64,000 nucleotides of DNA from contig NZ_CAJYVU010000175.1 of assembly GCF_913778135.1 (NCBI RefSeq), forward strand, positions 1 to 64,000, given 5' to 3'. The number at the start of each line of letters is the position of its first letter. The stretch's first letter is position 1. Source of the DNA: an uncultured Sphingomonas sp. (GTDB lineage Bacteria; Pseudomonadota; Alphaproteobacteria; Sphingomonadales; Sphingomonadaceae). Below the pieces are notes generated by a model. That model was given only the letters and a program-made list of their open reading frames with translations, searched no databases and was not told the origin of the DNA. Shown piece by piece: positions 3,734-32,383 of the stretch. A program made the translations under genes and the position numbers.

Positions 3734-4462
3734 CTAGCCTTCTACCTCGCCCATCCGCTCGATCAGGACCAGCACGTCGTCGATCAGCGCCTGCATCGCG
3801 ACCTTCGCGCGTGCCGGATCGCGGGCCAGGATCGCCTCGCACACCACGGCGTGGTCGTTGATGCTGGCGGTGCGACCCGCGATCCGATTGGTCACGCGGA
3901 TCGATACCCTGAGCGCGGTTGCCACCATGTCGCGGAACTGGACAAAGAAGGGATTGTTCGTCGCGCGCAGGATGGCGACATGAAACGCCAGATCGGCATC
4001 GAGCGAATCGTCCTCGCCGCGATCGGCCGCCTTCATCCGCTCCAGTCCCTGAACGATCGCCGCGCGCTGCTCGTCATCGGCGCGCTGTGCCGCCAGCGCC
4101 GCTGCCTGCGGCTCTACCCCCATGCGCAACTCGTTGAAGCGGCGCAGCAGTTCGATCGACGGACGTCGTTCGAGCAGCCAGCGCAGCACGTCGGCGTCGA
4201 ACAGGTTCCATGCTTCCGCCGGCATCACGAACGTGCCCTGCTTTGGCCGCGCGCCAAGCAGCCCCTTCGCGCCCAGCATCTTCACCGCCTCGCGCGTGAC
4301 GGAGCGGCTGACGCCGTGCTGCCGCACCAGCTCATTCTCGGTTGGAAAGGGCTTGTCGCTATACTCGCCCACCACGATAGCGCGGCCGAGCAGTTCCTGC
4401 AGGCCGAAGGTCAGGTTGCGGCCGAGATTCTGCCGCACGGGCGATTCTGATTCGATGTCCAC
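3734..4462 (-). CDS. GntR-family transcriptional regulator, FadR/FCD subfamily
   Basis: N-terminal wHTH (PFPTENELVRQHGVSRSVTREAVKMLGAKGLLGARPKQGTFV) plus FCD-like C-terminal domain; divergent from sugar symporter operon. Confidence 0.9.
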   Translation of the reverse strand: MDIESESPVRQNLGRNLTFGLQELLGRAIVVGEYSDKPFPTENELVRQHGVSRSVTREAVKMLGAKGLLGARPKQGTFVMPAEAWNLFDADVLRWLLERRPSIELLRRFNELRMGVEPQAAALAAQRADDEQRAAIVQGLERMKAADRGEDDSLDADLAFHVAILRATNNPFFVQFRDMVATALRVSIRVTNRIAGRTASINDHAVVCEAILARDPARAKVAMQALIDDVLVLIERMGEVEG

Positions 4463-4580
4463 GTCCCCTCACTCTATCAACCTTGCTCGTCACGCCAGCA
4501 ACTAAATCACAGTCGACATGTCGCATCTATCATATAAAAGGAGCGTGAACGCATAAGCGTGCACGAAGGGGAGAGCGCAG

Positions 4581-6170
4581 GTGCAGTTGGCGATGATCGA
4601 CGTACTGGTAGTGGTCGCCTACGCGATCGGCATCTTCGCGCTGGCGCAATGGGTCAGCCGTGACAAGGCCGGCGCCGGGCCTAAGAACACCACCGATTAC
4701 TTTCTCGCGTCCAAGAACCTGCCGTGGTGGGCGATAGGTGCCAGCCTGATCGCGGCCAACATCTCTGCCGAACAGATCGTCGGCATGTCCGGATCGGGCT
4801 ACGCCATCGGTCTTGCGATCGCGTCGTACGAATGGATGGCGGCGCTGACGCTGCTGATCGTCGGCAAGTATTTCCTGCCGATCTTCCTCCGCAACGAGAT
4901 CTACACGATGCCGCAGTTCCTGGAGCGGCGGTACGGTCCGTCGATCCGGACACTGATGGCCTTCTTCTGGCTGGCACTCTACGTCTTCGTCAACCTGACC
5001 AGCATCATCTGGCTCGGCTCGATCGCGGTCACCAAGGTCGCGGGCGTCAACCAGGACCTGGCGCTCGTTGTGCTGGGCGTGTTCGCGCTGCTTTACCAGT
5101 TGAAGGGCGGGTTGAAGGCGGTCGCGCTGACCGACATCGTGCAGGTGACGCTGCTGGTGCTCGGCGGCCTCATCATCGCCTATCTGACACTCGGCGAACT
5201 GGGACAGGGCAGCGGCGTCGTCGCAGGCTTCTCGCGCCTGACCCGCGAAATACCCGATCACTTCGACATGATCCTCGACAAGGGCAATCCGCACTACATG
5301 GACCTGCCCGGCCTGTCGGTGCTGATCGGCGGCATGTGGATCGCCAACTTGAGCTATTGGGGGTTCAACCAGTACATCATCCAGCGCGCGCTCGCCGCCA
5401 AGTCGATCGATGAGGCGCGCAAGGGTGTGCTGTTCGCCGCGTTCCTTAAACTGTTGATGCCGATCGTCATCGTGCTGCCGGGGATTGCGGCGGTGATCCT
5501 GGCGCCCGACCTGCCCAAGCCCGACGAAGCCTATCCGACGATGATGCGGCTGCTGCCCAGTGGTCTGCTCGGCCTCGTCTTCGCGGCGCTGGTGGCGGCG
5601 ATCATCGCGTCGACCGCGTCCAAGATCAACTCGATCGCGACGATCTTCACGCTCGATGTCTGGGCGAAGTTCAAGCGCAAGCCATCGACGGTCGAGAATG
5701 ATGTCGCCGATGATCGCCGCCTCGTGCTGGTCGGTCGCATCGCCGCGTCGGTGGCGATCGTGCTCGCGATCCTGACCGCGCGCCCGCTGGTCGGATCGTC
5801 GGAGCAGGCGTTCCAGTTCATCCAGGAGTTCACCGGCTTCTTCACGCCGGGCATCACCGTCATCTTCCTACTCGGTCTGTTCTGGAAACGCGCCAACGAG
5901 GCGGGCGCGATCACCGCCGCGATCGCCTCTGTGCTGCTGTCGTGGGGGATGAAGGTCTGGACGCCCGGCCTTCCGTTCATGGACCGCATGGGTGTCGTCT
6001 TCCTCGCGGCGCTCGCGCTCGCCGTCGTCGTCTCGCTGCTGACACCCAGTCGCGGCGACCGTGACACCATCGACACCCACGATGTCGGCTATCGCACCAC
6101 GACGAGCTTCAACGTCGGCGCGCTTGCCGTCGTCCTGATCCTCATCGTCCTGTACGCGACCTTCTGGTGA
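4581..6170 (+). CDS. Sodium:solute symporter (SSS/SGLT-type sugar transporter)
   Basis: 529 aa, TTDYFLASKNLPWWAIGASLIAANISAEQIVGMSGSGY SSS signature. Confidence 0.92.
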   Translation: MQLAMIDVLVVVAYAIGIFALAQWVSRDKAGAGPKNTTDYFLASKNLPWWAIGASLIAANISAEQIVGMSGSGYAIGLAIASYEWMAALTLLIVGKYFLPIFLRNEIYTMPQFLERRYGPSIRTLMAFFWLALYVFVNLTSIIWLGSIAVTKVAGVNQDLALVVLGVFALLYQLKGGLKAVALTDIVQVTLLVLGGLIIAYLTLGELGQGSGVVAGFSRLTREIPDHFDMILDKGNPHYMDLPGLSVLIGGMWIANLSYWGFNQYIIQRALAAKSIDEARKGVLFAAFLKLLMPIVIVLPGIAAVILAPDLPKPDEAYPTMMRLLPSGLLGLVFAALVAAIIASTASKINSIATIFTLDVWAKFKRKPSTVENDVADDRRLVLVGRIAASVAIVLAILTARPLVGSSEQAFQFIQEFTGFFTPGITVIFLLGLFWKRANEAGAITAAIASVLLSWGMKVWTPGLPFMDRMGVVFLAALALAVVVSLLTPSRGDRDTIDTHDVGYRTTTSFNVGALAVVLILIVLYATFW

Positions 6171-7036
6171 GCGCGAACAGCTTCATCGCGATCGATTGGG
6201 GCACGACCAACCGGCGTGCCTATCTGATCGAGGACGGCGTCGTCACCCGCACCGAGCGCGACGGCCTCGGCATCCGCGCGGTCTCGGACGGCAATTTCGC
6301 TGCCGCTACCCGCGCGCTCAAGCAGCAGATGGGCGACCACCCGATGCTGCTCGCCGGGATGATCGGGTCGAACCGCGGCTGGGTCGATGCGGGCTATGTC
6401 GCCTGCCCTGCCACGCTCGACACGCTTGCCGCAGCAACGCGGCGGGTAGAAGACGATGTCTTCATCGTGCCCGGCGTCAGCATCGTCGATGGTGCCCGCG
6501 CGGACGTGATGCGCGGCGAGGAGGTTCAGCTGCTCGGCGCGGTTGAGGGCGGGCTCGTGCCCGGCGACGCGCTGCTGTGCCAGCCCGGAACGCATTGCAA
6601 ATGGGCGCGCATGCGTGAGGGCGCGCTGGTCGATTTCGCCACCGCGATGACCGGCGAAGCCTTTGCGCTGCTGCGCGATCACGCGCTGATTGGCGCGGCG
6701 ATGACGGACGCGGTCGGCGAAGGACAAGCATTCCGCGACGGTGTCGCGCGCGCGGGCGATCACGATCTGCTCGCGGCCTTGTTCGGTGTACGCCCGGCAA
6801 GCCTGCTCGGCCTGCGCGACGACGCCGATGCGGCGTCCTACGTCAGCGGGCTGCTGATCGGCAGCGATGTGCGCGCGCAGGTGTCCGCGGGCGACCGGGT
6901 CCACGTGCTTGCCGACCCCGTGCTCGGCGCGCTCTACGCCGCGGCGATCGAGCAGGTCGGCGCGCGCAGTGTCGCGGTCGACAGCCACTCGGCCTTCGTG
7001 TCGGGGATTACCCACATCTGGGAACTCATGTCATGA
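6167..7036 (+). CDS. dgoK: 2-dehydro-3-deoxygalactonokinase
   Basis: DWGTTNRRAYLIEDG, LAGMIGSNRGW; GTG start overlapping symporter stop; next to dgoA. Confidence 0.9.
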   Translation: MSANSFIAIDWGTTNRRAYLIEDGVVTRTERDGLGIRAVSDGNFAAATRALKQQMGDHPMLLAGMIGSNRGWVDAGYVACPATLDTLAAATRRVEDDVFIVPGVSIVDGARADVMRGEEVQLLGAVEGGLVPGDALLCQPGTHCKWARMREGALVDFATAMTGEAFALLRDHALIGAAMTDAVGEGQAFRDGVARAGDHDLLAALFGVRPASLLGLRDDADAASYVSGLLIGSDVRAQVSAGDRVHVLADPVLGALYAAAIEQVGARSVAVDSHSAFVSGITHIWELMS

Positions 7037-7659
7037 TCGATTTCACGCAGGCGTTCGCCGCCTTGCCGCTCGTCGCCATCCTGCGCGGTGTCACCCCCGA
7101 CACGGTTGAGGGCGTCGGCGAGGAACTGCTCGCCGCCGGCTTTACGCTGATCGAGGTGCCGCTCAACTCGCCCGATCCGTTCACCAGCATCGAGCGACTG
7201 GCGCGTCGCTTCGGCGACCATGCGCTGTTCGGCGCCGGCACGGTGCTGAGCGTCGCCGACGTGGCACGCGTGCAGGACGCCGGCGGACGCATGGTCATCT
7301 CGCCCAACACCAACCTGTCGGTGATCGCCGCCACCGCGGCGGGCGGCATGGCGTCGCTGCCGGGCTATTTCAGTCCGTCGGAGGCGTTCGCCGCGCTCGA
7401 CGCGGGCGCGACCGCGCTGAAGCTGTTCCCGGCCGAGGCGGCGAGCCCGGCGGTGCTGAAGGCGCAGCGCGCGGTGCTGCCGAAACACGTGCCGGTGCTG
7501 ACGGTCGGCGGAATCACGCCCGACAACATGACGCCGTGGCGCGAGGCGGGGGCGGACGGTTTCGGGCTCGGCTCCGCGCTCTACCGTGTCGGATCGACTT
7601 CGGCACAGGTACGTGCCGCCGCCGATGCCTTTGTGGCCGGCTGGAGCGCGTCGGCATGA
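7033..7659 (+). CDS. dgoA: 2-dehydro-3-deoxy-6-phosphogalactonate aldolase
   Basis: PLVAILRGVTPD, GAGTVL, SPNTN, LPGYFSPSEAFAAL, ALKLFPAE: KDPG/KDPGal aldolase signatures; ATGA overlap with dgoK. Confidence 0.92.
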   Translation: MIDFTQAFAALPLVAILRGVTPDTVEGVGEELLAAGFTLIEVPLNSPDPFTSIERLARRFGDHALFGAGTVLSVADVARVQDAGGRMVISPNTNLSVIAATAAGGMASLPGYFSPSEAFAALDAGATALKLFPAEAASPAVLKAQRAVLPKHVPVLTVGGITPDNMTPWREAGADGFGLGSALYRVGSTSAQVRAAADAFVAGWSASA

Positions 7660-8648
7660 AGAAGACCCTTGCCGCGCTGGCGTTTACTATTGCCGCACCG
7701 CTCGTCGCGACACCGTCGCCGATGCTGGTCAACCCGCTGCTGCCGTCCGGCCCCGATCCGTCGATCGTGCGGGTAGGCGGCACCTATTATTACATGGCGA
7801 CGCTCAGGAACCGGCTCGCGATCCGCGCTACGACCGACATGGCCAAGCTCGCCGACGCACCAGAGCATATCGTGTGGACCCCGCCCGCGAGCGGGCCGAA
7901 CGCGCAGTCGATCTGGGCGCCCGAGCTGCACCGCATCGATGGCAAATGGTTCATCTATTATACCGCGGCGGCGAGCGGTCACGACGATGACGACCACCGC
8001 GGCATCTTCGTACTGGAGAACGCCTCGCGCGATCCGTTGCAGGGCACCTGGATCGACCGCGGCCGCGTCAACACACGGTTGTCCGGGATCGACGGCACCA
8101 CCTTCGCGACCGGCGGCAAGCGCTACTTCGCTTACTCGCCCTATGTCGGGCCAGACAGCGTGCTGGCGATCGCGCGCATGACCAATCCCTGGACGCTGGC
8201 GGGCGAAGAGACGGTGATCGCGCGCCCCGACCAGACATGGGAGCGGCAGGGCGGCCGGCAGATTCTGGAAGGTCCGGCGTTCCTCAAGGGACCGAAGGGC
8301 GACCTCTTCCTCAGCTATTCAGGCAGCGCATGCTGGTCGGACGATTACGCGATCGGCCTGCTCCATGCCGCTCCCGGCAGCGATCCGCTGAATGCAGCCA
8401 GCTGGCACAAGCAGCCGACACCCGTTGTGGCGAAGAACCCGGCCGGCGGCGTCTTCGCGCCCGGGCACAATGCCTTTTTTGCGGCCGGCGGTCAGACGTG
8501 GATCGTCTATCACGCCAACCCGCGCGCCGGCATGAAGTGCACGCCCGCGCGCGCGCCGCACGTGCAACGCGTCACCTGGTCGAAGGACGGGCAACCGGTC
8601 TTCGCACTGCCGGTCAGCGGCCCCCAACCGGCACCGCCCACCCGCTGA
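7656..8648 (+). CDS. Glycoside hydrolase family 43-like (arabinofuranosidase/galactosidase type), secreted
   Basis: Signal peptide MKKTLAALAFTIAAPLVA; GPDPSIVRVGGTYYYMAT, IWAPELHRIDGKWFIYYTA, ILEGPAFL propeller motifs; ATGA overlap with dgoA. Confidence 0.85.
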   Translation: MKKTLAALAFTIAAPLVATPSPMLVNPLLPSGPDPSIVRVGGTYYYMATLRNRLAIRATTDMAKLADAPEHIVWTPPASGPNAQSIWAPELHRIDGKWFIYYTAAASGHDDDDHRGIFVLENASRDPLQGTWIDRGRVNTRLSGIDGTTFATGGKRYFAYSPYVGPDSVLAIARMTNPWTLAGEETVIARPDQTWERQGGRQILEGPAFLKGPKGDLFLSYSGSACWSDDYAIGLLHAAPGSDPLNAASWHKQPTPVVAKNPAGGVFAPGHNAFFAAGGQTWIVYHANPRAGMKCTPARAPHVQRVTWSKDGQPVFALPVSGPQPAPPTR

Positions 8649-8740: not shown

Positions 8741-9919
8741 TCAGCGTCGACGCTCGCGCGCGGGAACCGCCTGTGCTTGCCCCTGCACCATCGGAGGCAC
8801 GACGCCCTTCGGTGCCGCGGCCAGGCTGCGGATCAGGTCGGTCTCGGCCTGGCGATAGGGCGTGCCGTCGTTGCGGAACACCTCGTGGAACCAGATCGTC
8901 GGCTCCTCATAGGTGTACGGCTTCTTCCAGCTGTCCCACGGCAGCCGCGTCTGCGTCTTGCCGTCGACGAAGCCCCAGTTCATCATTGCGATATTGTAGC
9001 GCTTGCCGATCGGCAGCGAGCCGTCGAAGGTCGAACCGTTACCGCGCGCCATATATTCGGTGCACAGGATCGGGCGGTTGTACGGCAGCAATTGCTTGAC
9101 GCGCGCCTCGAACTTCTCCGGCCAGTTGTAATCGTGAAACGAGATCACGTCTGACTGGTTGAGCTGCAGCTTTTCCATCGGCGTCAGCTTGCCGCCGTTC
9201 TGCGACCAGTCGTCGTGCTGCCACACGCCCGAGGTGATCGGCTGCGACGGTTCGGCCGCGCGTGCCCAGTCGAACACCTGCGCCAGCAACGCGCGCACCA
9301 GCGGCTCCTTGCCCTCCTGCCCCTTGTACTGGTCGGCACCGTTGTCGGGCTCGTTCCACACGTCCCAGCCGAGCACGCGGTCGTCGTTCCTGAACGCGCC
9401 GATCACGCCCTGCACATAGGCGCGATAGGCGGGGTAGCGCGTCTTGTCGCGCAGACCCGGCAGACCCGGACCCTGCACCCAGCCTGAGTTGTGGACACCC
9501 GGAATTGGCGGATGTTGCGGCCCGAGCTTCGGATCAGGATCCCAGCAGCTGTCGAACAGCACGAACAGCGGCTTGATGCCGTGGCGCTGCGCGAGCATCA
9601 GGAACTCGTCGATGCGGCGGCGAAAGCCCTCGGGATCGCTCGTCCATAGCTGGTCGTGCAGGAACACGCGCATCGTGTTCATGCCGATGCCCTGCGCCAG
9701 ACCAAGCTCGTAATCGATCCGCTTGGGATCCCACGTCTCGGCCTGCCACATCTCCATCTGGTTGATCGCGGTCGCGGGCGTATAGTTGCTGCCGACCAGC
9801 CACGGCTGCTTGCCGTACCAGGCGTTCGCCTGCGCCTCGGTCCAGCGCACGCGCGCCTCGGCACCGCCGCACACGAGCGTGCTGCCGAGCAGCAGCGACG
9901 CCAACAGATGCTTTTTCAC
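8741..9919 (-). CDS. Clan GH-A glycoside hydrolase, GH5/cellulase-like, secreted
   Basis: Signal peptide; GWDVWNEPDN (acid/base) and ILCTEYMAR (nucleophile) motifs. Confidence 0.8.
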   Translation of the reverse strand: MKKHLLASLLLGSTLVCGGAEARVRWTEAQANAWYGKQPWLVGSNYTPATAINQMEMWQAETWDPKRIDYELGLAQGIGMNTMRVFLHDQLWTSDPEGFRRRIDEFLMLAQRHGIKPLFVLFDSCWDPDPKLGPQHPPIPGVHNSGWVQGPGLPGLRDKTRYPAYRAYVQGVIGAFRNDDRVLGWDVWNEPDNGADQYKGQEGKEPLVRALLAQVFDWARAAEPSQPITSGVWQHDDWSQNGGKLTPMEKLQLNQSDVISFHDYNWPEKFEARVKQLLPYNRPILCTEYMARGNGSTFDGSLPIGKRYNIAMMNWGFVDGKTQTRLPWDSWKKPYTYEEPTIWFHEVFRNDGTPYRQAETDLIRSLAAAPKGVVPPMVQGQAQAVPARERRR

Positions 9920-9932: not shown

Positions 9933-11069
9933 TTACTTCTTCTGGACGAAAAGCTTGTAGGTCATGGTGTTGCGATAGGTCTGGCCGGGATCGAGCCGGA
10001 TCGAGGGAAAGCCCGGCTGGTTCATTGCGTCGGGGAACACCTGCGGCTCCATCACGATAGCGTCGCCCATCCGATACAGCTGGCCGTTCTTGCCCTTGAC
10101 CGTCCCGTCGAAGAAATTGCCGGAATAGAATTGCAGACCCGGCTGGTTCGACCACAATTCGAACCCGCGGCCCGACACCGGCTCGACCACCCGCGCCATC
10201 ATGTGCTGGTCGGCAGTCACGCGGTCGCCGATCACCCAATTGTGGTCGTACCCGCGCCCGAACACGATCTGCTGGTCGCGCGCGTCGCGTACCCGGTCGC
10301 CGACCGCGGTGGGCTTGCGGAAATCGAACACTGTGCCCGCGACGCTGGCGTGACGGCCGAGCGGGATCGAGGACGCGTCGGTCGGCGTGTAGCGGTCCGC
10401 CGGGATCGTCACGACATGCCCCATCGCGCCGGTGCCCGGCCCGGCGAGGTTCCAATAGGCGTGGTTGGAGATGTTGACGTAGGTCGGCTTGTCAGTCGTC
10501 GCGACATAGGCGATCGTCAGCTGGTTCTGCTCGTCGAGCGAATAGGTCGCGGTCGTCGTCAGCGTACCGGGATAACCCATGTCGCCGTCCGGGCTGACGT
10601 AGCGCAGCGTCACCGACGCAGCGGGTCCGTTCTTCGTGTCGACGACCTGCCACAGCACCTTGTCGAACCCCTTGGTCCCGCCGTGCAGTGAATTGGGGCC
10701 GTTGTTGACCGGCGTCGAATATTGCCGGCCGTCGAGCGTGAAGCGGCCCTTCGCCACGCGGTTGGCGACGCGGCCGACGGTCGCGCCGAAGAATTCGGGC
10801 TTGGTCGCGTAACCCTCCAGCGTGTCGTATCCGACCTGCACGTCGGCGACCTTGCCGTTCCGATCGGGCATCTTGAGCGATTGCAGCGCCGCACCCAGCG
10901 CGATCACCGTGGCGCTAACGCCCTTGGCGTTGGTCAGCGTGACGGCGGGGACGTGCCGGCCGTCGGGCAAGGTGCCGAAGTCGCTCCGCCGCGCCTCGGC
11001 CGCGAGTGCCGGGCTGGCGGCGGTGCCGGCCAGCAGGGCGGCGGCGATCATCGTCTTGCGCATCATCAT
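9933..11069 (-). CDS. galM: Aldose 1-epimerase (galactose mutarotase), secreted
   Basis: MMMRKTMIAAALLAGTAASPALAA signal; NRVAKGRFTLDG, NGPNSLHGGTKGFDKVLW, NISNHAYWNLAG, LQFYSGNF motifs. Confidence 0.93.
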   Translation of the reverse strand: MMMRKTMIAAALLAGTAASPALAAEARRSDFGTLPDGRHVPAVTLTNAKGVSATVIALGAALQSLKMPDRNGKVADVQVGYDTLEGYATKPEFFGATVGRVANRVAKGRFTLDGRQYSTPVNNGPNSLHGGTKGFDKVLWQVVDTKNGPAASVTLRYVSPDGDMGYPGTLTTTATYSLDEQNQLTIAYVATTDKPTYVNISNHAYWNLAGPGTGAMGHVVTIPADRYTPTDASSIPLGRHASVAGTVFDFRKPTAVGDRVRDARDQQIVFGRGYDHNWVIGDRVTADQHMMARVVEPVSGRGFELWSNQPGLQFYSGNFFDGTVKGKNGQLYRMGDAIVMEPQVFPDAMNQPGFPSIRLDPGQTYRNTMTYKLFVQKK

Positions 11070-11101: not shown

Positions 11102-11950
11102 CTATCCCTTGAAGCGGTACGGCGCGACACCGCGACAGCCGGCATCGACCTCGAACAGCGCGCCGGCATGTTCCTCGTCGCAGCCCTCGGCGGCAGAGGT
11201 CACGAACATGCGGTCGAGCGCCTCGCCTGCGAACGCGACGTTGGTGATCTGCGACGCGGGCAATGCGATTACACGCTCGCGGCGACCCGCGGGATCGAAG
11301 CGTGCGACGCACGCACCGCCCCAGCACGCGACCCATAGATGCGCTTCGGCATCAAAGGTCATGCCATCGGGATTGCCCCAGCCGTCCTCGAACACGATGA
11401 ACGGGGCTCGCGGACCCACCGATCCGTCATCGTGCACGGGGTAGCGGAAGATCGTGCGCAGCGCGGTGTCGGTGTGGAGCAGGAACCCGTCACCGATCGC
11501 GGGACCGTTCGCGATCGTATAGCCGTCACTCACGCGCGTCGCGCTGCCATTGGGGTCTAGTCGGTAAAATGCACCCGACGCGCGGTCGCAGCCAAAAGGC
11601 ATCGATCCGGCCCAGATGCGACCCGCCCTGTCCGCCTTGGCATCGTTGAAGCGGTTGCCCTCGCGCTCGGGCTCGGGCGCCGCAATCGTTTCGACCTCCA
11701 GCGGATCGAGCGTCAGCGCAGCGAACGTCCGTCCGACGCCTGCAACGAAACCGCCCCGCTCGCGCTCGATCAGCCAGCCGACGACATCGGGCAGTTCCCA
11801 CACGGTCACCGCATCGTTGGCGAGCGCCAGCCGCTGTACGCGCCGCTCAAGTATGTCGACCCAGAACACTGCCTGCTCGCGCGCGCTCCACAGCAGCCCC
11901 TCGCCCAGCCTATCGCGGCGGCCGCGGGGAATGATGCGCACTTCGACCAT
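11102..11950 (-). CDS. SMP-30/gluconolactonase-like sugar lactonase
   Basis: LGEGLLWSAREQAVFWVDI, NRFNDAKADRAGRIWAGSM, PDGMTFDAEAHLWVA; start overlaps stop of dehydratase. Confidence 0.9.
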   Translation of the reverse strand: MVEVRIIPRGRRDRLGEGLLWSAREQAVFWVDILERRVQRLALANDAVTVWELPDVVGWLIERERGGFVAGVGRTFAALTLDPLEVETIAAPEPEREGNRFNDAKADRAGRIWAGSMPFGCDRASGAFYRLDPNGSATRVSDGYTIANGPAIGDGFLLHTDTALRTIFRYPVHDDGSVGPRAPFIVFEDGWGNPDGMTFDAEAHLWVACWGGACVARFDPAGRRERVIALPASQITNVAFAGEALDRMFVTSAAEGCDEEHAGALFEVDAGCRGVAPYRFKG

Positions 11951-23308: not shown

Positions 23309-24439
23309 TCAGTATCCGCTGCGCGCGTAATATTGGATGCAGGCGGAACCTTGCAGGCGCCCGGCGATCTCCAGCACCTGACCGCCCGCGACGGAAAGCA
23401 GCGGCGCCGAGTAATTCGGGCACGGATTATTGCCATCGGGGTTGGGCACGCTGACCGGGGCGGAGATCGCGACCCACGGTCCCGCCGGATTGCCGCTGGC
23501 ACTCTTGAACAGCGTCGAGCCGCTGCCCGCCGCGATCGTGTTGTCGGCATTGCGCAGCTCCTGCCCGACGACCAGGATCGCGCCGTTCGCCATCACCGCA
23601 TTATAGGGCGCATGCGCGAAATAGCGGCCGTCGGACAGCCTGAGCGCGGTGCCGACGTTGCTTGCATTGCCCCAGTTCCATCCATCCGTGGACGTCCGAT
23701 AGAAGGTCGTGCACGCGGCCGGGCCGCACATTTCGTAGGTCATGAAGCGCGTGCCGCTCGCCAGCCGGCCGACGACCGCCATGCCGGGCCGGTCATTGTT
23801 GACCGTGCTGACGACTACGTCGGTCTGGTCGACCCAATTGGTGCCATTGTAGCTGCGCTTCATCAGCAATCGCTGACTGTGCACGCCGTCGGTTTCGTCC
23901 GAATAGAACATCACCAGCGCGCCGTCGTTCGCGACGATGAATTCCGGCTCCCACAAACCGCCGCCGCTGCTTGGCGAGGCGACCGGCGTCGCCACGTAGC
24001 GCCACGTCCGCCCGTTGTCGGTGCTGTGATAAAGCTTGATCTTCATGACTTTGCGGTCCGTGCTTTGCCCAACCGACCCAGCCCAGATCATCGTGCCCGC
24101 CGCCATTGAACCGATCGCGCGCGGCAGCACGAAGATGTTGCCGCAGCACAGCCCGGTCGAGAATTCAGCGTCGTTGATCTGCCCGACTTTCGCGAACGAC
24201 GCGCCTGCGTTGCTGCCGGCGTAAACATCGACATGTGCGCCGCTGTCGAACGAGGTAACGGTGGACACCAATTCGCCGTTCGGCATCGTACGCACGCGTG
24301 CATACATCGCGCTTGTCGTGCTCAGCTGCGATTGTGCCACCGCCGGTTGCGCAACGATCGGCAGGGCGATCAGCGCCGTCGCCGCGAGCGCACCAGCCAT
24401 GGGCCAGGCGATCGACCGACGCGAATGCTGCCTCTTCAT
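23309..24439 (-). CDS. Sialidase-fold hydrolase, GH93 exo-arabinanase-like or BNR-repeat enzyme, secreted
   Basis: Signal peptide; YARVRTMPNGELVSTVTSFDSG, LYHSTDNGRTWRYVATP (Asp-box), GGGLWEPEFIVANDGALVMFYSDE. Confidence 0.65.
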   Translation of the reverse strand: MKRQHSRRSIAWPMAGALAATALIALPIVAQPAVAQSQLSTTSAMYARVRTMPNGELVSTVTSFDSGAHVDVYAGSNAGASFAKVGQINDAEFSTGLCCGNIFVLPRAIGSMAAGTMIWAGSVGQSTDRKVMKIKLYHSTDNGRTWRYVATPVASPSSGGGLWEPEFIVANDGALVMFYSDETDGVHSQRLLMKRSYNGTNWVDQTDVVVSTVNNDRPGMAVVGRLASGTRFMTYEMCGPAACTTFYRTSTDGWNWGNASNVGTALRLSDGRYFAHAPYNAVMANGAILVVGQELRNADNTIAAGSGSTLFKSASGNPAGPWVAISAPVSVPNPDGNNPCPNYSAPLLSVAGGQVLEIAGRLQGSACIQYYARSGY

Positions 24440-24815
24440 CAATCCTCTCCTCGTTCGACCTCGTCCCGCAACAGTTTGCGACCGAGTCGATAGGAATAAT
24501 ATGATGAATGATTATCATTGTCGCTTCTATTATGTTTTAAGCAGCGAGAGGTAGCGAGGGCATCATCAACACGTGCCGCCCGTGAGATGCTGGAGGGAGC
24601 CGGGGCTTGTCGGGTGAGGTCTCAACGAAACAGGTCAACACCCGCGAACGACGCCTTTCCGTGCATTGGCCGTTCCGAGTGCTGGCTCACTCAACGGCGA
24701 TTAGCACCATCGCCGCGGCGCGCCGGATCGCCGCTCTTCCCCGCACGCTTTCCCTCTCGATGCGCGGACCGGCCCCTGCCGCACAATCGTCCCACAGATC
24801 CATTAAGGAGATACG

Positions 24816-26015
24816 ATGCCGCGTTTGAACCGTGTGAGCCGTTGCCTCGCCACCCTGGCGCTGATCGCCGCCACCACGACGCCAGCTGCTGTAGCGCAGC
24901 ACGCAGGTGGGTGGGTGCGTGCGTGGACCGCAAGTCCGCTTCCTCCACCGCCCGACAAAGTCGTGACGATCGAAAACGCCACTTTGCGCGCGACCGTGCG
25001 CACTGGTGCCGCAGGCCCGGCGCTTCGCCTGCGACTGTCGAACGAGCACGGCAGCGATGTCGTCCGCGTCAACGCTGCCACGATCCGCGGCCCCGGCGGT
25101 ACGTTCGTCCCCGTCACCTTCGGCGGCAAGCGCGAGGCGCGGATCGAGATCGGCGCACCGCTGGTCAGCGATCCCGTTCGCCTTCCGGTCAAGGCGTTCG
25201 ATCTGGTCGACGTGTCGCTGTTCGTGAAGGACAAGACCCCGCTCAGCACCGCGCATCAGGCCGGCGGCGCCCCCACGATCATCTCGGCTCCCGGCGACTT
25301 CACCAATGCCGCGCAGTTTACCGAGGCACAGCGCAGCACCTTTCGTCCGCTGATCGCGGGACTGGACGTTCAGTCACCCGCACAACGCCCGATCATCGTC
25401 GCGTTCGGCGATTCAATCACCGACAACACCGGCTGCGCCAATGACGCACCCGTGATCTGCCGCTGGGGCGACGCGCTCGCGCGGCGCTTCGCCGCCGCTG
25501 GCCGACCCGAGGTAGTGATCACTCAGGCGATCGGCGGCAACCGCCTGCTCGCGCCCGGTGCCGGACCCAGCGCGCTGATGCGGTTCGACCGCGACGTGCT
25601 CAGCGTGCCGGGCGTCACGCACGTGGCGATCCTGGAGGGGATCAACGACATCGGCACGATCGCGCTGGCGAAACCCGGCGAGCCGCTCGTCACCGCGGAT
25701 CAGCTGATCGGCGCCTTTAAACAGCTGATTGCGCGCGCGCACGAACACGCCATTAAGGTCGTCGGCTTCACCATCCTGCCTTACCAAGGCTCGGGCCGCT
25801 ACACCGACGCGGGCGAGGCGGTGCGCGTGGCGGTCAATCGCTGGATCATGACCGGCGGCGGCTTCGATGCGGTGTTCGATCTCGAAAAGACCGTCGCCGA
25901 TCCCGCGAACCCGAAGCGGCTGGCCACGCCGCTGCAGTTCGGCGACGACCTGCACCCCAACGACGCGGGTGAGACGAAGATGGCGGAGGCGATCCCGCTG
26001 TCGCTGTTCCGCTGA
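24816..26015 (+). CDS. SGNH/GDSL hydrolase (carbohydrate-esterase-like), secreted
   Basis: Signal peptide; IIVAFGDSITDNTGC (block I), AIGGNRLL, EGINDIG, DLHPNDAGETKMAEAI (block V). Confidence 0.9.
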   Translation: MPRLNRVSRCLATLALIAATTTPAAVAQHAGGWVRAWTASPLPPPPDKVVTIENATLRATVRTGAAGPALRLRLSNEHGSDVVRVNAATIRGPGGTFVPVTFGGKREARIEIGAPLVSDPVRLPVKAFDLVDVSLFVKDKTPLSTAHQAGGAPTIISAPGDFTNAAQFTEAQRSTFRPLIAGLDVQSPAQRPIIVAFGDSITDNTGCANDAPVICRWGDALARRFAAAGRPEVVITQAIGGNRLLAPGAGPSALMRFDRDVLSVPGVTHVAILEGINDIGTIALAKPGEPLVTADQLIGAFKQLIARAHEHAIKVVGFTILPYQGSGRYTDAGEAVRVAVNRWIMTGGGFDAVFDLEKTVADPANPKRLATPLQFGDDLHPNDAGETKMAEAIPLSLFR

Positions 26016-26058: not shown

Positions 26059-27966
26059 TTACTCGCCGATCCGCAGTACTCCGATAGAGGCCGGATCACC
26101 GATATCGATCGGCACCAGTCCGAAATGCATCCGCCACGGCGCGGTCGGGTCGTTGCCGAACATCGTGTACCAATAGCGCCCCTGCTTGTCCCTGAACGCG
26201 GTGCCGTGCCCGCCGTGCGGCGCACCCATGCGGCGCTCGCTGTACGGACCTAGCAGCGAACGGGAGGTGCCGTACATCATATCGTACGTGCCGTGCGTGC
26301 GCAGCGGTCCGTTCCATTCGGCACCGGTCAGGAAATACACGCCGTCGACCTTGATCAGGCCATTGCCTTCGTATCCGACCGGATCACCTTTGCGGTCGAC
26401 CAGCTTGTGCACCGGTCTCTCAAAGCCGTCGCGCCGCGCGTTCAACTTGGCGATGCTGCCGCCGCCCCACAGGAAGTACAGCCCGTCGTCGTCCTCGAAG
26501 GGAAAACCGTCGATGCCGGTGACCAGATAGCTCTTGGTTACATTAACGTACGGCCCCGTCGCCTTGCCGCTGGTCGAGCGATACAGCCACGTCTTGCCGC
26601 CCACACCGCGCTCCATCACCGAGAAGGCGAGGTAATAGGTCTTGTCGTGCGCGACCCACTTGATCTCGGGCGCCCACAGTTCGGCGATGTTGCCGCCGAA
26701 GTCGTATCCCATCCCCTCCCAGCGCCAGATGAAGCCCACGTCGTCCCATTTCACGAGATCACGCGAGCGCCACAGCTTCACGCCGCCATCGGGCCGGTGA
26801 TAACCGTAACCGTCGAGCGTGCCGACCAGGTAATAATAGCCGTCGTCGCCCAGCGTGACCGATGGATCACGCATCGTCTCCGACGTGATCAGTGGCCTCC
26901 GCGCCGCAACCGCGCTGTCCTCGGTGATGACCGATCCCGCTTGCCGCAGCCGTCCATCGGGCGCGCGCTCCAGCGGCACCAGCCCGACCTGTTCGCAGAA
27001 CAACGCGAAACTATCGTCGCACTTGGGATTGTACACCGCCGTCAGCACGCCGCCCTCGCCGCGCAGCAGCGACCCGCGCCCCGCATGCGGCACTGCCAGT
27101 GCGCGTTTGGTGAATTGGCCATACGGGCTAGGTGCCTCGGCGACGAACAAGTCCTCGGTCGCGGTACGCAGCCGCCCAGTCACCTCGCTCGCCGCCAGCA
27201 CATAGCGGTCGCCGTCTCGGATCATCGTCGCGCCGCGCGTGCCGATGCGCGTACGCACCGGCCAATCCTTGCCCACCGGCGGCGTCTTCGCGAACAGCGC
27301 CTGATCGGGCTTGAGGTGTCGCGGCGCTTCCGCCAGCTTCTGCATGTCAGCGGCAAGCCGGGCGATCATGCCGCCGCCCCAGATCAGATAAGCCGCGCCA
27401 TCGATGTCGACGAACAGCGAGACATCGCTCGCATCCTCCACCAGGCACGGCGAGGCCGCGAAGGCACCACCGAGCGTCGCAGCGCTCCCCACCGCCACGC
27501 GCGCGCACCCGGTCTTGTCGGAGAAGGCCAAGTACAGCCGGTCGCCCGCCACCGCCACCGACGGCGCCAGATAACGCTCCGACACGTCGTCGGGTGCGAT
27601 CCCGTTGCCGCCGATCTTCGCCAGCCCGACACGCGTCCAGGCACGCGCGTCGGGAGAGGTCCATAGCTCAACGCCGTGGCGCGGCGGGTTGCGCAAGCTC
27701 GTACCGGTCAGGATCCAGCCGCCGCCGGGCAGCCGCGCCATCGACGCGTCGCCGATCGGCCGTTCGGCGAAGATCGCCGCGACCGGCTTCGCGCCCGCGT
27801 TTGGTTGGACGGTTGCATTTGCATCCATCGACGGATGATCGGCGAAGATGTCGTCGGCGACCGCCTTCTGCCGCCCGCCTTGCGCAGTTGCGGGCGCGAT
27901 CGAGGGCGCGGTTGCAACGGCGGCAATTGCGAAAGCCGATGCGAGGAAGATGCGACGGCTCGTCAT
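26059..27966 (-). CDS. Two-module GH43-like protein (tandem propellers), probable Tat export
   Basis: MTSRRIFLASAFAIAA Tat-like signal; MRDPSVTLGDDGYYYLVGT, IAELWAPEIKWVAHDKTYYLAFS; both halves carry IWGGGMIARL / LWGGGSIAKL. Confidence 0.82.
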   Translation of the reverse strand: MTSRRIFLASAFAIAAVATAPSIAPATAQGGRQKAVADDIFADHPSMDANATVQPNAGAKPVAAIFAERPIGDASMARLPGGGWILTGTSLRNPPRHGVELWTSPDARAWTRVGLAKIGGNGIAPDDVSERYLAPSVAVAGDRLYLAFSDKTGCARVAVGSAATLGGAFAASPCLVEDASDVSLFVDIDGAAYLIWGGGMIARLAADMQKLAEAPRHLKPDQALFAKTPPVGKDWPVRTRIGTRGATMIRDGDRYVLAASEVTGRLRTATEDLFVAEAPSPYGQFTKRALAVPHAGRGSLLRGEGGVLTAVYNPKCDDSFALFCEQVGLVPLERAPDGRLRQAGSVITEDSAVAARRPLITSETMRDPSVTLGDDGYYYLVGTLDGYGYHRPDGGVKLWRSRDLVKWDDVGFIWRWEGMGYDFGGNIAELWAPEIKWVAHDKTYYLAFSVMERGVGGKTWLYRSTSGKATGPYVNVTKSYLVTGIDGFPFEDDDGLYFLWGGGSIAKLNARRDGFERPVHKLVDRKGDPVGYEGNGLIKVDGVYFLTGAEWNGPLRTHGTYDMMYGTSRSLLGPYSERRMGAPHGGHGTAFRDKQGRYWYTMFGNDPTAPWRMHFGLVPIDIGDPASIGVLRIGE

Positions 27967-29135
27967 CGCTGCATCGCCCTGAAATCGTCGATCCACGCGT
28001 AGTTAAAGGCCGCGCTGCCGTCCGGATTCGGCTGCACCGTCCGCCCGGCATAGACGCTATTGATCAGCCACGGCGTCTTCTTCGGCCCCCACCCGTCCGA
28101 CATCGACGCACCCTGACGAAAGCCATAGGTCGCGACGGCCAGACGGCCGGTCGCGCGAAACATCGCCATTTGCCGCGCAAGGTAATGCTTGCGTGTCTCA
28201 AACCACGGGCTCATCCGCAGGAAGTCGTCCCACTTCGTTTTGGAGAAAGGCGTGGCGAGCGCTGCCTTCACGACCTGCCAGTTCTGCGTCGTGCGCGGCA
28301 GCTCATATCGATCGGCGAAGGCGGGCGCGACCGCCTGCGGCATCTGCGCCTGCCACCACCAGATCAGCGAGAATTCGGTGACTAGGAACGTCTGCTCGGG
28401 CCGCATCCGCGGCAGGATGTAATCGAGAAATGCCTTAGACGCCTCGATCCGGCTGACGTGCGGATGGATGTTGACGCCGTCCAGTTCCGGTGTCGCCTTC
28501 ACGAACGCCATCCACCGCTCGGTTGTCGCGTCGCGCCATGCCGGCTTCTCGAGCTGGTTGAGCGCGCCCATGTACAACCGCGTCCTGCACGTCGGCGCGC
28601 AATGCGTGGTGCGGTAATCGATCACACGCCGCGCGAGCCGCTCGTAGAAGCGGTTGAAGTTCGGGTTCCAGTCCTGCTGCCGGCTCTCGATGAACGGCTC
28701 GTTGCCGATCACCAGCACGTCGACCTTCCCCATCACCAGCGGCAGTACCGCGTCGGTACGCGCGACCTGTCGGCGGAACTCCACACCGTCGGCACTGGGA
28801 AACGGCACGCGATTGTACGGGTATTTAAGCGTCAGGATCGTCCGGTACCCGCGCCGGCCGAGATCGAGGATCGTCCTGACCGCGCCGTGGTCCGCCGCCG
28901 GGGCGCGATCGAGCTGCGGCATCGGCAGGAACAACCGCACCCATTTCGCGTCGGCCTTGTCGAGATCGCGCGTGTCCACGTCCTCGAAATGCTCGTTGTA
29001 ATTGGCGCCCAATGCTCCGGCTGCCTTCGCCGGGACCGCCTGCGCGACGCCCGAGCCGATCAGCACCGCGACGCTCAGCGCAGCAATCAAACAACGAAAG
29101 ACCGATCCCGCTTTCGTCATCCTGCCTTCACTCAC
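27963..29135 (-). CDS. Putative glycoside hydrolase, clan GH-A-like TIM barrel, family not recognised, secreted
   Basis: Signal peptide; DVLVIGNEPF and TFLVTEFSLIWWW resemble acid/base and nucleophile strands; 4-bp overlaps with both neighbours. Confidence 0.6.
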   Translation of the reverse strand: MSEGRMTKAGSVFRCLIAALSVAVLIGSGVAQAVPAKAAGALGANYNEHFEDVDTRDLDKADAKWVRLFLPMPQLDRAPAADHGAVRTILDLGRRGYRTILTLKYPYNRVPFPSADGVEFRRQVARTDAVLPLVMGKVDVLVIGNEPFIESRQQDWNPNFNRFYERLARRVIDYRTTHCAPTCRTRLYMGALNQLEKPAWRDATTERWMAFVKATPELDGVNIHPHVSRIEASKAFLDYILPRMRPEQTFLVTEFSLIWWWQAQMPQAVAPAFADRYELPRTTQNWQVVKAALATPFSKTKWDDFLRMSPWFETRKHYLARQMAMFRATGRLAVATYGFRQGASMSDGWGPKKTPWLINSVYAGRTVQPNPDGSAAFNYAWIDDFRAMQR

Positions 29136-30733
29136 GGCTTTGCCGGCACGCTGGGCCGCGTCGGTCGCGTGTTCGCCAGCTCGAGCGAGACGGGCCTGGG
29201 CTGCGCGTCGAGGTAGCGCTCGAGCCTTGCCTTCACCTGCGGCATGACCGCCACCATGTTTCGCGTCTCGCCCGGATCGCGCGTCAGATCGTAGAGCTCG
29301 TAATCGCGCGCGCCGCTGCCCTCCAGCGTCCAGCGCACCAGCCGGTAGTCGGCCGTGCGCACCGCCTGCCCGATCCGCCCCGGGCGGTTATAGGCGTGAT
29401 AGGCATAGGGTTTCACCACCCGCGCAGGGTTGCGCAGCGCGGGCGACAGATCGATGCCGTCGACCGGCTGCATCGTTTTCGGGTAGGCGAGCCCGGCAAG
29501 CTTCACCAGCGTCGGGTAGACATCGACCGTCTCGGCGATCTGGCGTGGCGCCTGCCCTGCCTTGCCGGTGCCGGGCCCGGCAATGATCAGCGGCTGGCGC
29601 ACCGCCTGCTCGAAATTGGTGTGCTTGGTCCAGATGCCGTGGTCGCCCAGGTGCCAACCGTGATCGCCCCACAGCACCACGATCGTGTTCTTCGCCAGGC
29701 CCTGCCGGTCGAGCGTGTCGAGCACCTTGCCGATCTGCGCGTCGACGTAGCTGACACCGGCGTAATAGCCGTGGATCAGCTTGCGCTTCAATTCGGGCGA
29801 ATAGTCCGCACCCGACTTCGACCCCTCTGGGACGGGTTTATAGGCGGCAATCTCCCCGCCCAATTTGCCGGCGAACGCAGGCGCGCCATCGGGTAGGCGT
29901 TCGAAGTCGGGCATCGGCAACTTGGCGGGGTCGTACATGTCCCAATAGCGCTTGGGTACCGAGAAGGGCAGGTGCGGCCGCGCGAAACCCACCGCCAGGA
30001 AGAACGGCGTGCCCGACGCCTTCAACTCCGCCAGCCGCTTCGACGCCCGCGCCGCGATACGCCCATCGGCATAAGCATCGTCGGGCACGTCCGGGCTCTC
30101 CCACGCCACCCCGCGGCCGAGCGAGCGGGCGTAGGTCCACACGTTGCCGGTAATCGGCACCTCGTTGAATAGCGCCTCTTCCTGCGTCGGCTGCCCGCCG
30201 GTGCTGGCGCGCTCAACATATTCGATCACATGGTCCTTGACCGGCGGACGCGACCAGCTCTGCGGGTCGTCGTGCGAACCGTGGCCGACGTGGAACACCT
30301 TGCCATAGCTCTCGGCAGTATAGCCTTGCTGCTTGAACAGCTGCGGCAGCGTGACTGCGTTCGGAATATAATCGCGCACGTCCATGCCGAATTCGTAGAT
30401 GCCGGTGGAGGTCGAGCGGCGGCTAGTCATCAGGTTGATCCGGCTCGGCGCACACACCGCCTGATTGGCATAGGCATGTTCGAAACGACTGCCGCGCGCT
30501 GCCAGCCGGTCGATGTTCGGGCTGATCGCGGTCCGGTCACCGAACGAACGCAGCGTCGGCTTCAGATCATCGATCATGATGAGCAGCACGTTAGGGCGCT
30601 GCGCCGCGGTTTCTTCCGGCGGTCGCGGTTTCGACCGGCGCGCGGACGCGACACTCGCCGGCGTGCCCGCCAGCATGACCGTCATCGCCAGCAATCCGGC
30701 GATCCGGCGGGGTGCTGCAAACCCTCGCATCAT
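29132..30733 (-). CDS. Sulfatase, iduronate-2-sulfatase/S1_7-like, Cys-type
   Basis: RPNVLLIMIDDLKPTL, NQAVCAPSRINLMTSRRS (CxPSR), GKVFHVGH. Confidence 0.9.
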   Translation of the reverse strand: MMRGFAAPRRIAGLLAMTVMLAGTPASVASARRSKPRPPEETAAQRPNVLLIMIDDLKPTLRSFGDRTAISPNIDRLAARGSRFEHAYANQAVCAPSRINLMTSRRSTSTGIYEFGMDVRDYIPNAVTLPQLFKQQGYTAESYGKVFHVGHGSHDDPQSWSRPPVKDHVIEYVERASTGGQPTQEEALFNEVPITGNVWTYARSLGRGVAWESPDVPDDAYADGRIAARASKRLAELKASGTPFFLAVGFARPHLPFSVPKRYWDMYDPAKLPMPDFERLPDGAPAFAGKLGGEIAAYKPVPEGSKSGADYSPELKRKLIHGYYAGVSYVDAQIGKVLDTLDRQGLAKNTIVVLWGDHGWHLGDHGIWTKHTNFEQAVRQPLIIAGPGTGKAGQAPRQIAETVDVYPTLVKLAGLAYPKTMQPVDGIDLSPALRNPARVVKPYAYHAYNRPGRIGQAVRTADYRLVRWTLEGSGARDYELYDLTRDPGETRNMVAVMPQVKARLERYLDAQPRPVSLELANTRPTRPSVPAKP

Positions 30734-32346
30734 GCTTCCCTCTTTCTCGATTGCCGCGTCAGGGGTGGACGGCTGCGCCCGTCGCGTTCGATCCGGTCGA
30801 GCTGCGCCGCCATCGCCCGCACACGCGCAGGCTGCTGCGCGGCCAGATCGTGGTGCTCTCCCGGGTCACGCGCGAGGTTGAACAATTGATCGTGCGGCTG
30901 CGTCCCGATCGGATTGCCGTGGAATGCGCTCGGCTGCGCGCCTCCGCGCACGAACTTCCAGTCGCCGACGCGCAGCGCGAGCACGCGCGCCCCGCTACCC
31001 GATACGCTTGCGCCGTTGGTCACCATCAGCTTGGTGTCCTCGACCACATGGTCGCGCCCGCGGTCGCTATGCCCGAACAAGGCCGGGCGCAGGTCGAAAC
31101 TGTCGACCGCCTGATCGTCGGGCAGCGGTTGTCCCACCATCGCGGCGAGTGAGGCGAGCAGGTCGACGTGGCTGACGATCGCGCGCGACACATGCCCGGC
31201 GCGCGCGCCGCCGGGCCAGTGGACGATCATCGGCACGCGCGTTCCGCCCTCGTAGATGCTGTACTTGCCGCTGCTGTACGGTCCCGAGATGCGGTGCGCG
31301 CCCGCCAGTTCGGCCGCGTGGTCGGCATAGCCGTCGAACAGGATCGGGCCGTTGTCGCTGCTGAAGATCACCAGTGTATCGTTGGCCAGGCCCTGCTGCT
31401 CCAGCTCGCGCATGAATGCGCCGACCGTCCAGTCGAGCTGGAGAATCGCGTCGCCGCGCGGCCCCATGCCCGATTTGCCAACGAAGCGCGGATGCGGGGC
31501 GCGCGGCACGTGCGGTTCGTTGACTGCATAATACAGGAAAAAGGGCTGCGATTTGCGCGCACGCACGAAATCGATCGCCTTTCCCAGCAACACGTCGGAC
31601 AAGGCCTCGTCGCTCCAGCGCGCCTTCTCGCCGCCGCTCATGTAACCGATCCGGCTTATACCGTTGACGATCGTGCCCGAATGCTCCGGGTCGGCACCGA
31701 ACTTCAACTGCTGCGGCTGCTCGGCCCCGGTGGGTTCGTCTCCAACCTTGCGCTTGTAGTCGACGCGAATCGGATCGTTCCTGTCGAGGTTCACGACCCG
31801 CCGGTTCTCGATCAGCACTGTCGGCACGCGGTCCAGCGTCGCGGGCATGTAGAAACCGTAGTCAAACCCGATGTCGAGCGGCCCTGGGCCGATCTCGCCA
31901 TTCCAGTCGACCGTGCCGTTGCCCAGCCCCAGATGCCATTTGCCGACGACACCGGTGGCATAGCCTGCGCGCTTCAGCATCGCGGGCAAGGTGAAGCGGC
32001 CGGGCTGGATGATCGCGGGCGCGTCGCCCGGCAGGATCTGCGTGCCCGATGCGCGCCAGGCATAATCCCCGGTCAAGAGCGCGTAACGAGACGGCGTGCA
32101 CGTCGCAGACGGCGAATGCGCGTTGGCGAAGCGCGTACCCCCCGCGGCGAGCCGATCGATGTTCGGTGTCGCGATCGTCCGGGCGCCGTAACAGCTGAGA
32201 TCGCCGTAACCCAGATCGTCGGCATAGATGACGATGATGTTGGGGCGAGCGCGACGCGAGCTACTTGCCTTCGCGTGGGCTACCGTAGAGCAGACCAGCG
32301 CAGTACCTGCGAGCAGTACCGTCCGGCGCGTGACTGCCTCGCTCAT
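30730..32346 (-). CDS. Arylsulfatase-type sulfatase, Cys-type, Tat-like signal
   Basis: RPNIIVIYADDLGYGDLSCYG, SPSATCTPSRYALLTG (CxPSR), GKWHLG; N-terminus EAVTRRTVLLAGTAL. Confidence 0.92.
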   Translation of the reverse strand: MSEAVTRRTVLLAGTALVCSTVAHAKASSSRRARPNIIVIYADDLGYGDLSCYGARTIATPNIDRLAAGGTRFANAHSPSATCTPSRYALLTGDYAWRASGTQILPGDAPAIIQPGRFTLPAMLKRAGYATGVVGKWHLGLGNGTVDWNGEIGPGPLDIGFDYGFYMPATLDRVPTVLIENRRVVNLDRNDPIRVDYKRKVGDEPTGAEQPQQLKFGADPEHSGTIVNGISRIGYMSGGEKARWSDEALSDVLLGKAIDFVRARKSQPFFLYYAVNEPHVPRAPHPRFVGKSGMGPRGDAILQLDWTVGAFMRELEQQGLANDTLVIFSSDNGPILFDGYADHAAELAGAHRISGPYSSGKYSIYEGGTRVPMIVHWPGGARAGHVSRAIVSHVDLLASLAAMVGQPLPDDQAVDSFDLRPALFGHSDRGRDHVVEDTKLMVTNGASVSGSGARVLALRVGDWKFVRGGAQPSAFHGNPIGTQPHDQLFNLARDPGEHHDLAAQQPARVRAMAAQLDRIERDGRSRPPLTRQSRKREA

Positions 32347-32367
32347 CAATCCCCTCCTTTGTTGTGA

Positions 32368-32383
32368 TATTTATCATACAGGT
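32368..32383. promoter_or_regulatory. Putative operator/promoter motif TATTTATCATACAGGT upstream of sulfatase operon
   Basis: 14/16 match to the 13847 site (reverse strand). Confidence 0.5.

Follow-up and report, generated by a model that had tools for sequence, protein, structure and literature searches.

Which polysaccharide is broken down by the gene products encoded at positions 3734-32346 of contig NZ_CAJYVU010000175.1 from an uncultured Sphingomonas sp.? The 64,000 nucleotides analysed here (the window) are part of this 67-kb contig, and the genome of 3.33 Mb is 99% complete. A sequence-only reading had proposed a locus for the utilization of sulfated (arabino)galactan, in which uptake, extracellular processing, desulfation, import and oxidative galactose catabolism are encoded side by side. 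We called open reading frames with a codon-usage filter and scanned the products against Pfam and NCBIfam. All functions named in that reading (TonB receptors, glycoside hydrolases, sulfatases, a formylglycine-generating enzyme [FGE], an SSS symporter, and the catabolic genes) were placed in the block by these scans, together with two genes it had missed, encoding a GalM mutarotase and a GntR/FCD regulator. Two of the three S1 sulfatases of the whole genome and every recognised GH43 match are located inside the locus. Our favoured reading, with a probability of roughly two in three, is that the block is a self-contained locus for the catabolism of a polysaccharide that is sulfated, rich in galactose, and decorated with side chains of arabinose; the polymer itself would be a sulfated arabinogalactan or heterogalactan. 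This reading draws on gene content, family-level activities, a galacto-6-sulfate triad, a TIM barrel with two invariant glutamates, conservation of a gene cassette, and a shared 8-bp element, all of them seen in the sequence or in a structural model. As an outer-membrane TonB receptor is encoded next to exported CAZymes and a regulator, the block is a polysaccharide utilization locus (PUL) in the broad sense. It lacks the SusC/SusD pair of a canonical Bacteroidetes PUL, since the TonB receptors are SusC-like only and no SusD-like gene was found among the scanned proteins.

The best-defined sulfatase of the locus is of the S1_15 type. Besides 7oze, its matches in the PDB include 6s20 ('GalNAc-6-O-sulfatase') and the lambda-carrageenan G6S sulfatases 9bas ('S1_15A') and 9bau, and the formylglycine motif C-x-P-x-R is present as CTPSR at residue 83. 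Removal of 6-sulfate from galactose or GalNAc is the activity of S1_15 enzymes, and in BT3333 the axial O4 and O3 are read by Asp173-Arg174 and His225 (PMC10154612, PMC6994673). We found a corresponding Asp-Arg/His triad, assigned by motif and spacing and not by direct alignment, in the DR of TLDRVP and the His of EHSGTI. The distance from Arg to His is 49 residues here and 51 in BT3333, and the triad is invariant in 19 relatives. This supports galactose-6-sulfate as the predicted target of the enzyme. The nearest PDB structure of the second, S1_7-like sulfatase is 6hhm, which we take to be an S1_7 ulvan sulfatase; some S1_7 members are 4S-sulfatases in carrageenan pathways, as reported elsewhere (PMC12549532). 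The C-x-P-x-R motif is kept in both sulfatases, and the FGE retains its Cys pair five residues apart. A separate sulfate-ester locus on contig C201 (L020, 4323-13790) contains an FGE, an S1 sulfatase, a TonB receptor, and an alkylsulfatase (PF14863/PF14864), and is the home of the third S1 sulfatase and the second FGE of the genome. Because of these neighbours, with a TonB receptor, FGE and alkylsulfatase of their own, this third sulfatase was set aside as a member of the system.

What happens to the released sugars is indicated by the catabolic genes. The Gfo/Idh enzyme matches the D-galactose 1-dehydrogenase 4ew6 and the L-arabinose 1-dehydrogenase 6jnj/7cgq far above every other Gfo/Idh structure. 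The IlvD/Edd dehydratase exceeds the cut-off of NF009560, and the model for L-arabinonate dehydratase stays below its own cut-off. Dehydrogenase, lactonase, dehydratase, 2-keto-3-deoxygalactonate kinase, and 2-keto-3-deoxy-6-phosphogalactonate aldolase of a De Ley-Doudoroff-type pathway are all present at the family level. Thus, the locus is predicted to encode a complete phosphorylating galactonate route, with a putative substrate for the IlvD/Edd enzyme. Neither a galactokinase (GalK) nor an L-arabinose isomerase (AraA) was detected in the genome, and the Leloir route for galactose and the isomerase route for L-arabinose were accordingly rejected. Since, in addition, the genome contains a single DHDPS-family gene, the locus is its only recognised galactose route. 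Of the original proposal, uptake, desulfation and the oxidative breakdown of galactose are supported.

Three GH43-like proteins had been claimed; two of them are clear Pfam matches, one with two GH43 domains, and the third (16872-17966) falls below the cut-off. The best match of the first is 3akf, presumably a GH43_26 exo-1,5-alpha-L-arabinofuranosidase, and its DP, GIDGT and EGP motifs are conserved in three relatives, so that both the match and the catalytic triad point to this subfamily. For the tandem GH43 only weak PDB matches were obtained. The residues RDPS, GID and YEGN of its C-terminal domain are retained in 17 relatives (read by eye), and its N-terminal domain, without a clear acid, looks degenerate. 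The GH93-like protein matches the exo-arabinanase 3a71, a GH93 enzyme, over residues 44-312, a full-domain match that argues for GH93 membership. No orthologues of the GH93 and SGNH proteins were found in any related locus tested; both thus appear to be strain-specific at this site and are therefore weak guides to the core substrate. The earlier inference of arabinose-decorated chains from GH43- and GH93-like enzymes is corrected with respect to the latter. Better evidence for arabinose comes from the GH43_26-like enzyme, the dual-sugar dehydrogenase, and the arabinofuranosidases that adjoin the hydrolase family in Actinobacteria (see below).

With so many arabinose-type enzymes, the backbone could also be a sulfated arabinan with galactose or xylose branches, like the xylogalactoarabinan found in Cladophora, a green alga of fresh water; galactose would then be a side-chain sugar only. 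Indeed, arabinofuranosidase-type genes outnumber recognised galactosidases, GH51 genes adjoin the actinobacterial homologues of the hydrolase, and Cladophora surera has sulfated 4-linked arabinopyranose together with 6-linked, 3-sulfated galactose (PMC5694217). But the S1_15 type is specific for galacto-6-sulfate, whereas in Cladophora the sulfate groups are attached at C2/C3 of arabinopyranose and at C3 of galactose. Moreover, the catabolic half ends in the galactose enzymes DgoK/DgoA, and no arabinose-specific downstream enzyme was found. We consider such a backbone unlikely.

Which enzyme would then cleave the galactose-rich chain of the favoured substrate? For the protein encoded at 27963-29066, searches of Pfam (E up to 10), NCBIfam and, with a 62-row profile, PDB sequences gave no match. 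A first AlphaFold2 (AF2) model from five sequences (pLDDT 63.7) was replaced by one from 62 homologues, which is a TIM barrel with a mean pLDDT of 94.3. The predicted catalytic residues Glu123 (GNEP), after strand 117-120, and Glu231 (TEF), after strand 226-230, are invariant in the 62 homologues. In the model, this placement of acid/base and nucleophile fits a retaining enzyme of clan GH-A (4/7 barrel). The closest solved folds include PslG, GH10 xylanase, GH53 endo-galactanase and GH35 beta-galactosidase, with TM-scores of ~0.4-0.5 and 11-14% identity, suggesting a clan GH-A protein without a close family among solved folds. Judged against Pfam, NCBIfam and PDB rather than CAZy, the family seems to have no characterised member. 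The GH5-like enzyme conserves WNEP and TEY in four relatives; no informative PDB match was found for it or for the weak GH43-like protein. The sole GH2 of the genome is located on another contig. Because no characterised galactanase is encoded in the locus, galactan cleavage is predicted to fall to the clan GH-A hydrolase, the GH5-like enzyme, or both. It is possible, if doubtful, that the hydrolase founds an undescribed clan GH-A family cleaving the galactan/arabinogalactan chain of sulfated arabinogalactans and related polymers, and that it forms with S1_15 and the tandem GH43 a Sphingomonadales cassette paralleled by GH51/ABC/sulfatase operons of soil Actinobacteria.

To what extent are these genes kept together? 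We searched 301 genomes of the family for the hydrolase (at high similarity) and the S1_15 sulfatase (E<1e-100). Each was found in five genomes, and four of the five with S1_15 also contain the hydrolase (hypergeometric p ~4e-6, computed by hand with the query genome left out and kinship uncorrected). Scanning a collection with one genome per species returned 78 loci. Those of Sphingomonas, Sphingopyxis, Novosphingobium and Pacificimonas keep S1_15 and hydrolase together, usually with the tandem GH43 and a TonB receptor, and the Gfo-IlvD-lactonase-GalM-GntR-SSS-Dgo set often accompanies this cassette. In one genome of the same genus (G334), 16 of the 20 genes are found within ~23 kb; TonB receptor 1, the weak GH43-like protein, GH93 and SGNH are missing. 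The gene order of the cassette is reshuffled between genomes. Since the same set nevertheless recurs in relatives, the locus is not a chance assembly, and by its distribution among the searched sequences the cassette is widespread in Sphingomonadales. In Actinobacteria, an S1 sulfatase lies within the fetched flank of the hydrolase in 16 of 55 loci, where arabinofuranosidases of GH51 or GH43 and an ABC importer are also frequent. In an IQ-TREE phylogeny, 14 of these 16 sulfatase-flanked copies and all sphingomonad copies are on one side of a branch with 100/100 support, the other side being occupied mostly by lone copies of Streptomyces, Saccharopolyspora and Amycolatopsis.

Some further hydrolase copies were observed. 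Those of Pantoea, Brucella endophytica and Mesorhizobium are lone, with no sulfatase or arabinosidase nearby in a tblastn scan; the Pantoea copy clusters with the sphingomonad copies in the tree, which suggests transfer. Four Sphingopyxis loci contain two hydrolase paralogues each, with S1_15 between them. The locus of Steroidobacter agaridevorans (L035) encodes a distant second hydrolase-like protein (11121-12248, minus strand; 32% identity, no Pfam match), which adjoins the close homologue on the opposite strand.

The cassette genes also share a short upstream element. The 8-mer TTATCATA occurs in 28 copies in 20 related loci. For 26 copies, in 18 of the 20 loci, a cassette gene follows at most 350 bp downstream; in most cases this gene encodes TonB receptor 2 or S1_15. 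TTATCATA ranks first of 280 composition-matched 8-mers for upstream placement. Because the loci are related and several runner-up 8-mers overlap the same sites, the 26 copies are not independent events, and the count reflects conservation of one element. In the window, TATCAT(A/T) precedes the SSS/GntR pair, TonB receptor 2, the GH93/SGNH pair (TTATCATT), and the S1_15 operon. The locus genes are probably co-regulated, and the element could be a GntR operator, if regulator and element indeed belong together, or part of a promoter. A GntR-type operator, TNGTNNNACNA, was dropped in favour of TTATCATA because of its inconsistent placement.

Conservation and upstream element also bear on the question of whether this is one system. 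The block might consist of two adjoining modules, one for arabinan/arabinogalactan of land-plant pectin or arabinogalactan proteins (AGP; GH43, GH93, SGNH, SSS-Dgo), and one for sulfate esters of another glycan (S1_15, S1_7, FGE). Such a composite would agree with the missing GH93/SGNH orthologues, the variable gene order, and the soil or root origin of several hosts (by record titles). It is quite improbable, however, since S1_15, hydrolase and tandem GH43 occur together in most related loci, a 4-bp overlap joins S1_15 to S1_7 and the hydrolase gene to the tandem GH43 gene in the window, one 8-bp element precedes both receptor and sulfatase genes, and the sulfatase and arabinofuranosidase neighbours of the hydrolase family recur in another phylum. 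A red-algal galactan (agar, porphyran, carrageenan) with misread arabinosidase-like genes is very hard to believe: S1_15 and S1_7 members are active in carrageenan pathways (PMC12549532) and one relative is from the agar-degrading S. agaridevorans (PMC7966939), but the genome contains no GH16 (GH50, GH82, GH86, GH117 and GH150 were not searched genome-wide), for which reason agar, porphyran and kappa-carrageenan were rejected, no anhydrogalactose genes were recognised within the locus, and the best matches of the GH43_26-like and GH93 proteins are arabinan enzymes.

Several observations weigh against a sulfated arabinogalactan or heterogalactan as the substrate. GalNAc-6-sulfate is also an S1_15 substrate. 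No recognised galactanase or beta-galactosidase was found within the locus, nor was a recognised enzyme for the L-2-keto-3-deoxyarabinonate branch found. Few relatives were found to have a GH43_26-like gene close to the cassette. Finally, most hydrolase loci of Streptomyces and Amycolatopsis are without a neighbouring sulfatase, and such lone copies mean that the hydrolase may itself act on an unsulfated target.

If the substrate is nevertheless a sulfated arabinogalactan, the polymer or its fragments would be taken up across the outer membrane by the TonB receptors. Before their export, the sulfatases would have their Cys converted to formylglycine by the FGE in the cytoplasm. Outside the cytoplasm, arabinose would be stripped by exo-arabinofuranosidases, that is the GH43_26-like enzyme, GH93 (in this strain), and probably the tandem GH43. 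The S1_15 enzyme would take the 6-sulfate off galactose and the S1_7-like enzyme a second sulfate at a presumed position, and the galactan chain would be cut by the clan GH-A hydrolase and the GH5-like enzyme, both putative backbone-cleaving enzymes. GalM and the SSS symporter would deliver D-galactose (and L-arabinose). These sugars would then undergo oxidation (Gfo/Idh dehydrogenase), ring opening (lactonase) and dehydration (IlvD/Edd). Phosphorylation of the galactose product by DgoK and its splitting by DgoA would yield pyruvate and glyceraldehyde-3-phosphate. In this scheme, we infer the sub-cellular locations of the proteins and the fate of the arabinonate branch.

The features of the locus are listed in Table 1. 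It is flanked by genes for a major facilitator superfamily transporter (1932-3293) and an S9 peptidase (32648-34549). An open reading frame of 181 aa without a Pfam match (22712-23257, minus strand) separates TonB receptor 2 from GH93.

Table 1. Genes and sequence elements of the locus, with positions in the window
Feature	Position	Strand	Evidence
GntR/FCD transcriptional regulator, candidate local regulator	3734..4462	-	PF07729 E 5.7e-24, PF00392; orthologue adjoins catabolic genes in relatives
TATCATA element, between regulator and SSS operon	4528..4534	+	
SSS sodium:sugar symporter	4593..6170	+	PF00474 E 6.6e-65; TIGR00813 over cut-off
DgoK 2-keto-3-deoxygalactonate kinase	6167..7036	+	PF05035 E 1.6e-81
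DgoA 2-keto-3-deoxy-6-phosphogalactonate aldolase	7033..7659	+	NF006600 275 bits, cut-off 207
GH43 (GH43_26-like) putative exo-alpha-L-arabinofuranosidase; signal peptide by eye	7656..8648	+	PF04616 E 1.4e-51; 3akf E 3e-60
GH5-like clan GH-A hydrolase	8741..9919	-	PF00150 E 1.1e-6 (weak); conserved in 4 relatives
GalM aldose 1-epimerase, signal peptide	9933..11069	-	PF01263 E 3.4e-89
SMP-30 aldonolactonase	11102..11950	-	PF08450 E 1.6e-69
IlvD/Edd sugar-acid dehydratase	11950..13818	-	PF00920/PF24877; NF009560 1016 bits, over cut-off
TonB-dependent receptor 1, start codon uncertain	13877..16792	+	TIGR01782 E 1.8e-159
GH43-like protein, no subfamily given	16872..17966	+	PF04616 E 1.1e-5, below cut-off; orthologues in 4 relatives
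D-galactose/L-arabinose 1-dehydrogenase (Gfo/Idh)	17990..18913	+	4ew6 E 1.9e-102; 6jnj/7cgq E ~1e-100
FGE, without signal peptide	18917..19846	-	PF03781 E 2.8e-77; Cys275/Cys280 pair
TonB-dependent receptor 2, usually the one conserved with the cassette	19893..22607	-	TIGR01782 E 6.9e-158
TTATCATA element, upstream of TonB receptor 2	22655..22662	+	
GH93-like exo-arabinanase, strain-specific accessory	23309..24400	-	3a71 E 2.5e-25; no orthologue in related loci
TTATCATT element, between divergent GH93 and SGNH genes	24512..24519	+	
SGNH/GDSL esterase, strain-specific accessory	24816..26015	+	PF13472 E 3.7e-21; no orthologue in related loci
Two-domain (tandem) GH43	26059..27966	-	PF04616 E 7.1e-41; 17 relatives
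Predicted clan GH-A-type hydrolase; start codon possibly further upstream	27963..29066	-	AF2 TIM barrel; invariant Glu pair in 62 homologues
S1 sulfatase, S1_7-like (CAPSR)	29132..30733	-	PF00884 E 6.6e-46; best PDB 6hhm E 4.7e-82
S1_15-type galactose-6-O-sulfatase (CTPSR, twin-arginine-like leader)	30730..32346	-	7oze E 9.4e-160, 52% identity; 9bas, 6s20
TTATCATA element, upstream of S1_15 operon	32371..32378	+	

Green seaweeds produce sulfated arabinogalactans, which are also known from wine AGP; Codium AGP and red-wine AGP are precedents for this class of polymer (PMC8406133). Sulfated polymers of arabinose and galactose have also been reported from freshwater algae and plants, with Cladophora xylogalactoarabinan (PMC5694217) and the sulfated, arabinose-containing heterogalactans of Eichhornia (PMC3269731) as examples. 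Dedicated bacterial systems for sulfated arabinogalactans are known from very few organisms, and in Sphingomonadales the locus provides a set of genes that is compact, conserved and amenable to testing. Its most interesting part is the hydrolase family, the neighbours of which are sulfatases and arabinofuranosidases in two phyla. If both the new GH-A family and the cassette hold true, sulfated arabinogalactans would regularly serve as a carbon source in terrestrial and freshwater habitats as well as in the sea.

How does the locus compare with known systems? The Azospirillum-type oxidative pathway for L-arabinose and D-galactose includes L-arabinose 1-dehydrogenase (6jnj/7cgq), a lactonase, and an IlvD/Edd dehydratase. 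The locus has the same dehydrogenase family, the lactonase and IlvD/Edd in common with it, but ends in the phosphorylating, De Ley-Doudoroff-type DgoK/DgoA and is set within a polysaccharide locus. The arabinogalactan PULs of Maribacter likewise express GH43_26 and a two-domain GH43 on arabinogalactan, and a galactose mutarotase adjoins arabinose catabolism; in contrast to our locus, they use an isomerase/kinase route for arabinose and SusC/D, and their sulfatases are not substrate-specific (PMC11036162). Closely related S1_15 galactose-6-sulfatases, and exo-type desulfation paired with glycosidases, are found in the lambda-carrageenan locus of Pseudoalteromonas, which acts on a different polymer with GH150, GH110, GH2 and S1_8, arabinofuranosidases being unmentioned (PMC12549532). 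The closest functional system is PUL5/PUL13 of Bacteroides plebeius (PMC8406133), where an outer-membrane importer, S1 sulfatases and GH43 also act on sulfated arabinogalactan and desulfation is required before the galactan backbone is cleaved. It relies on other families, namely SusC/D, the sulfatases S1_8 and S1_14, the exo-galactanase GH43_24, and GH145, and the text consulted mentions no oxidative galactose pathway in the locus. The sequence-only reading had not recognised the gene combination as described. In the open-access literature we likewise found no description of a sphingomonad locus for sulfated arabinogalactan, but the claim has to be narrowed, given a cassette that is widespread in Sphingomonadales and the functional precedent in B. 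plebeius. Loci for sulfated galactans and arabinogalactans are already known; new here is a proteobacterial version with an uncharacterised hydrolase family.

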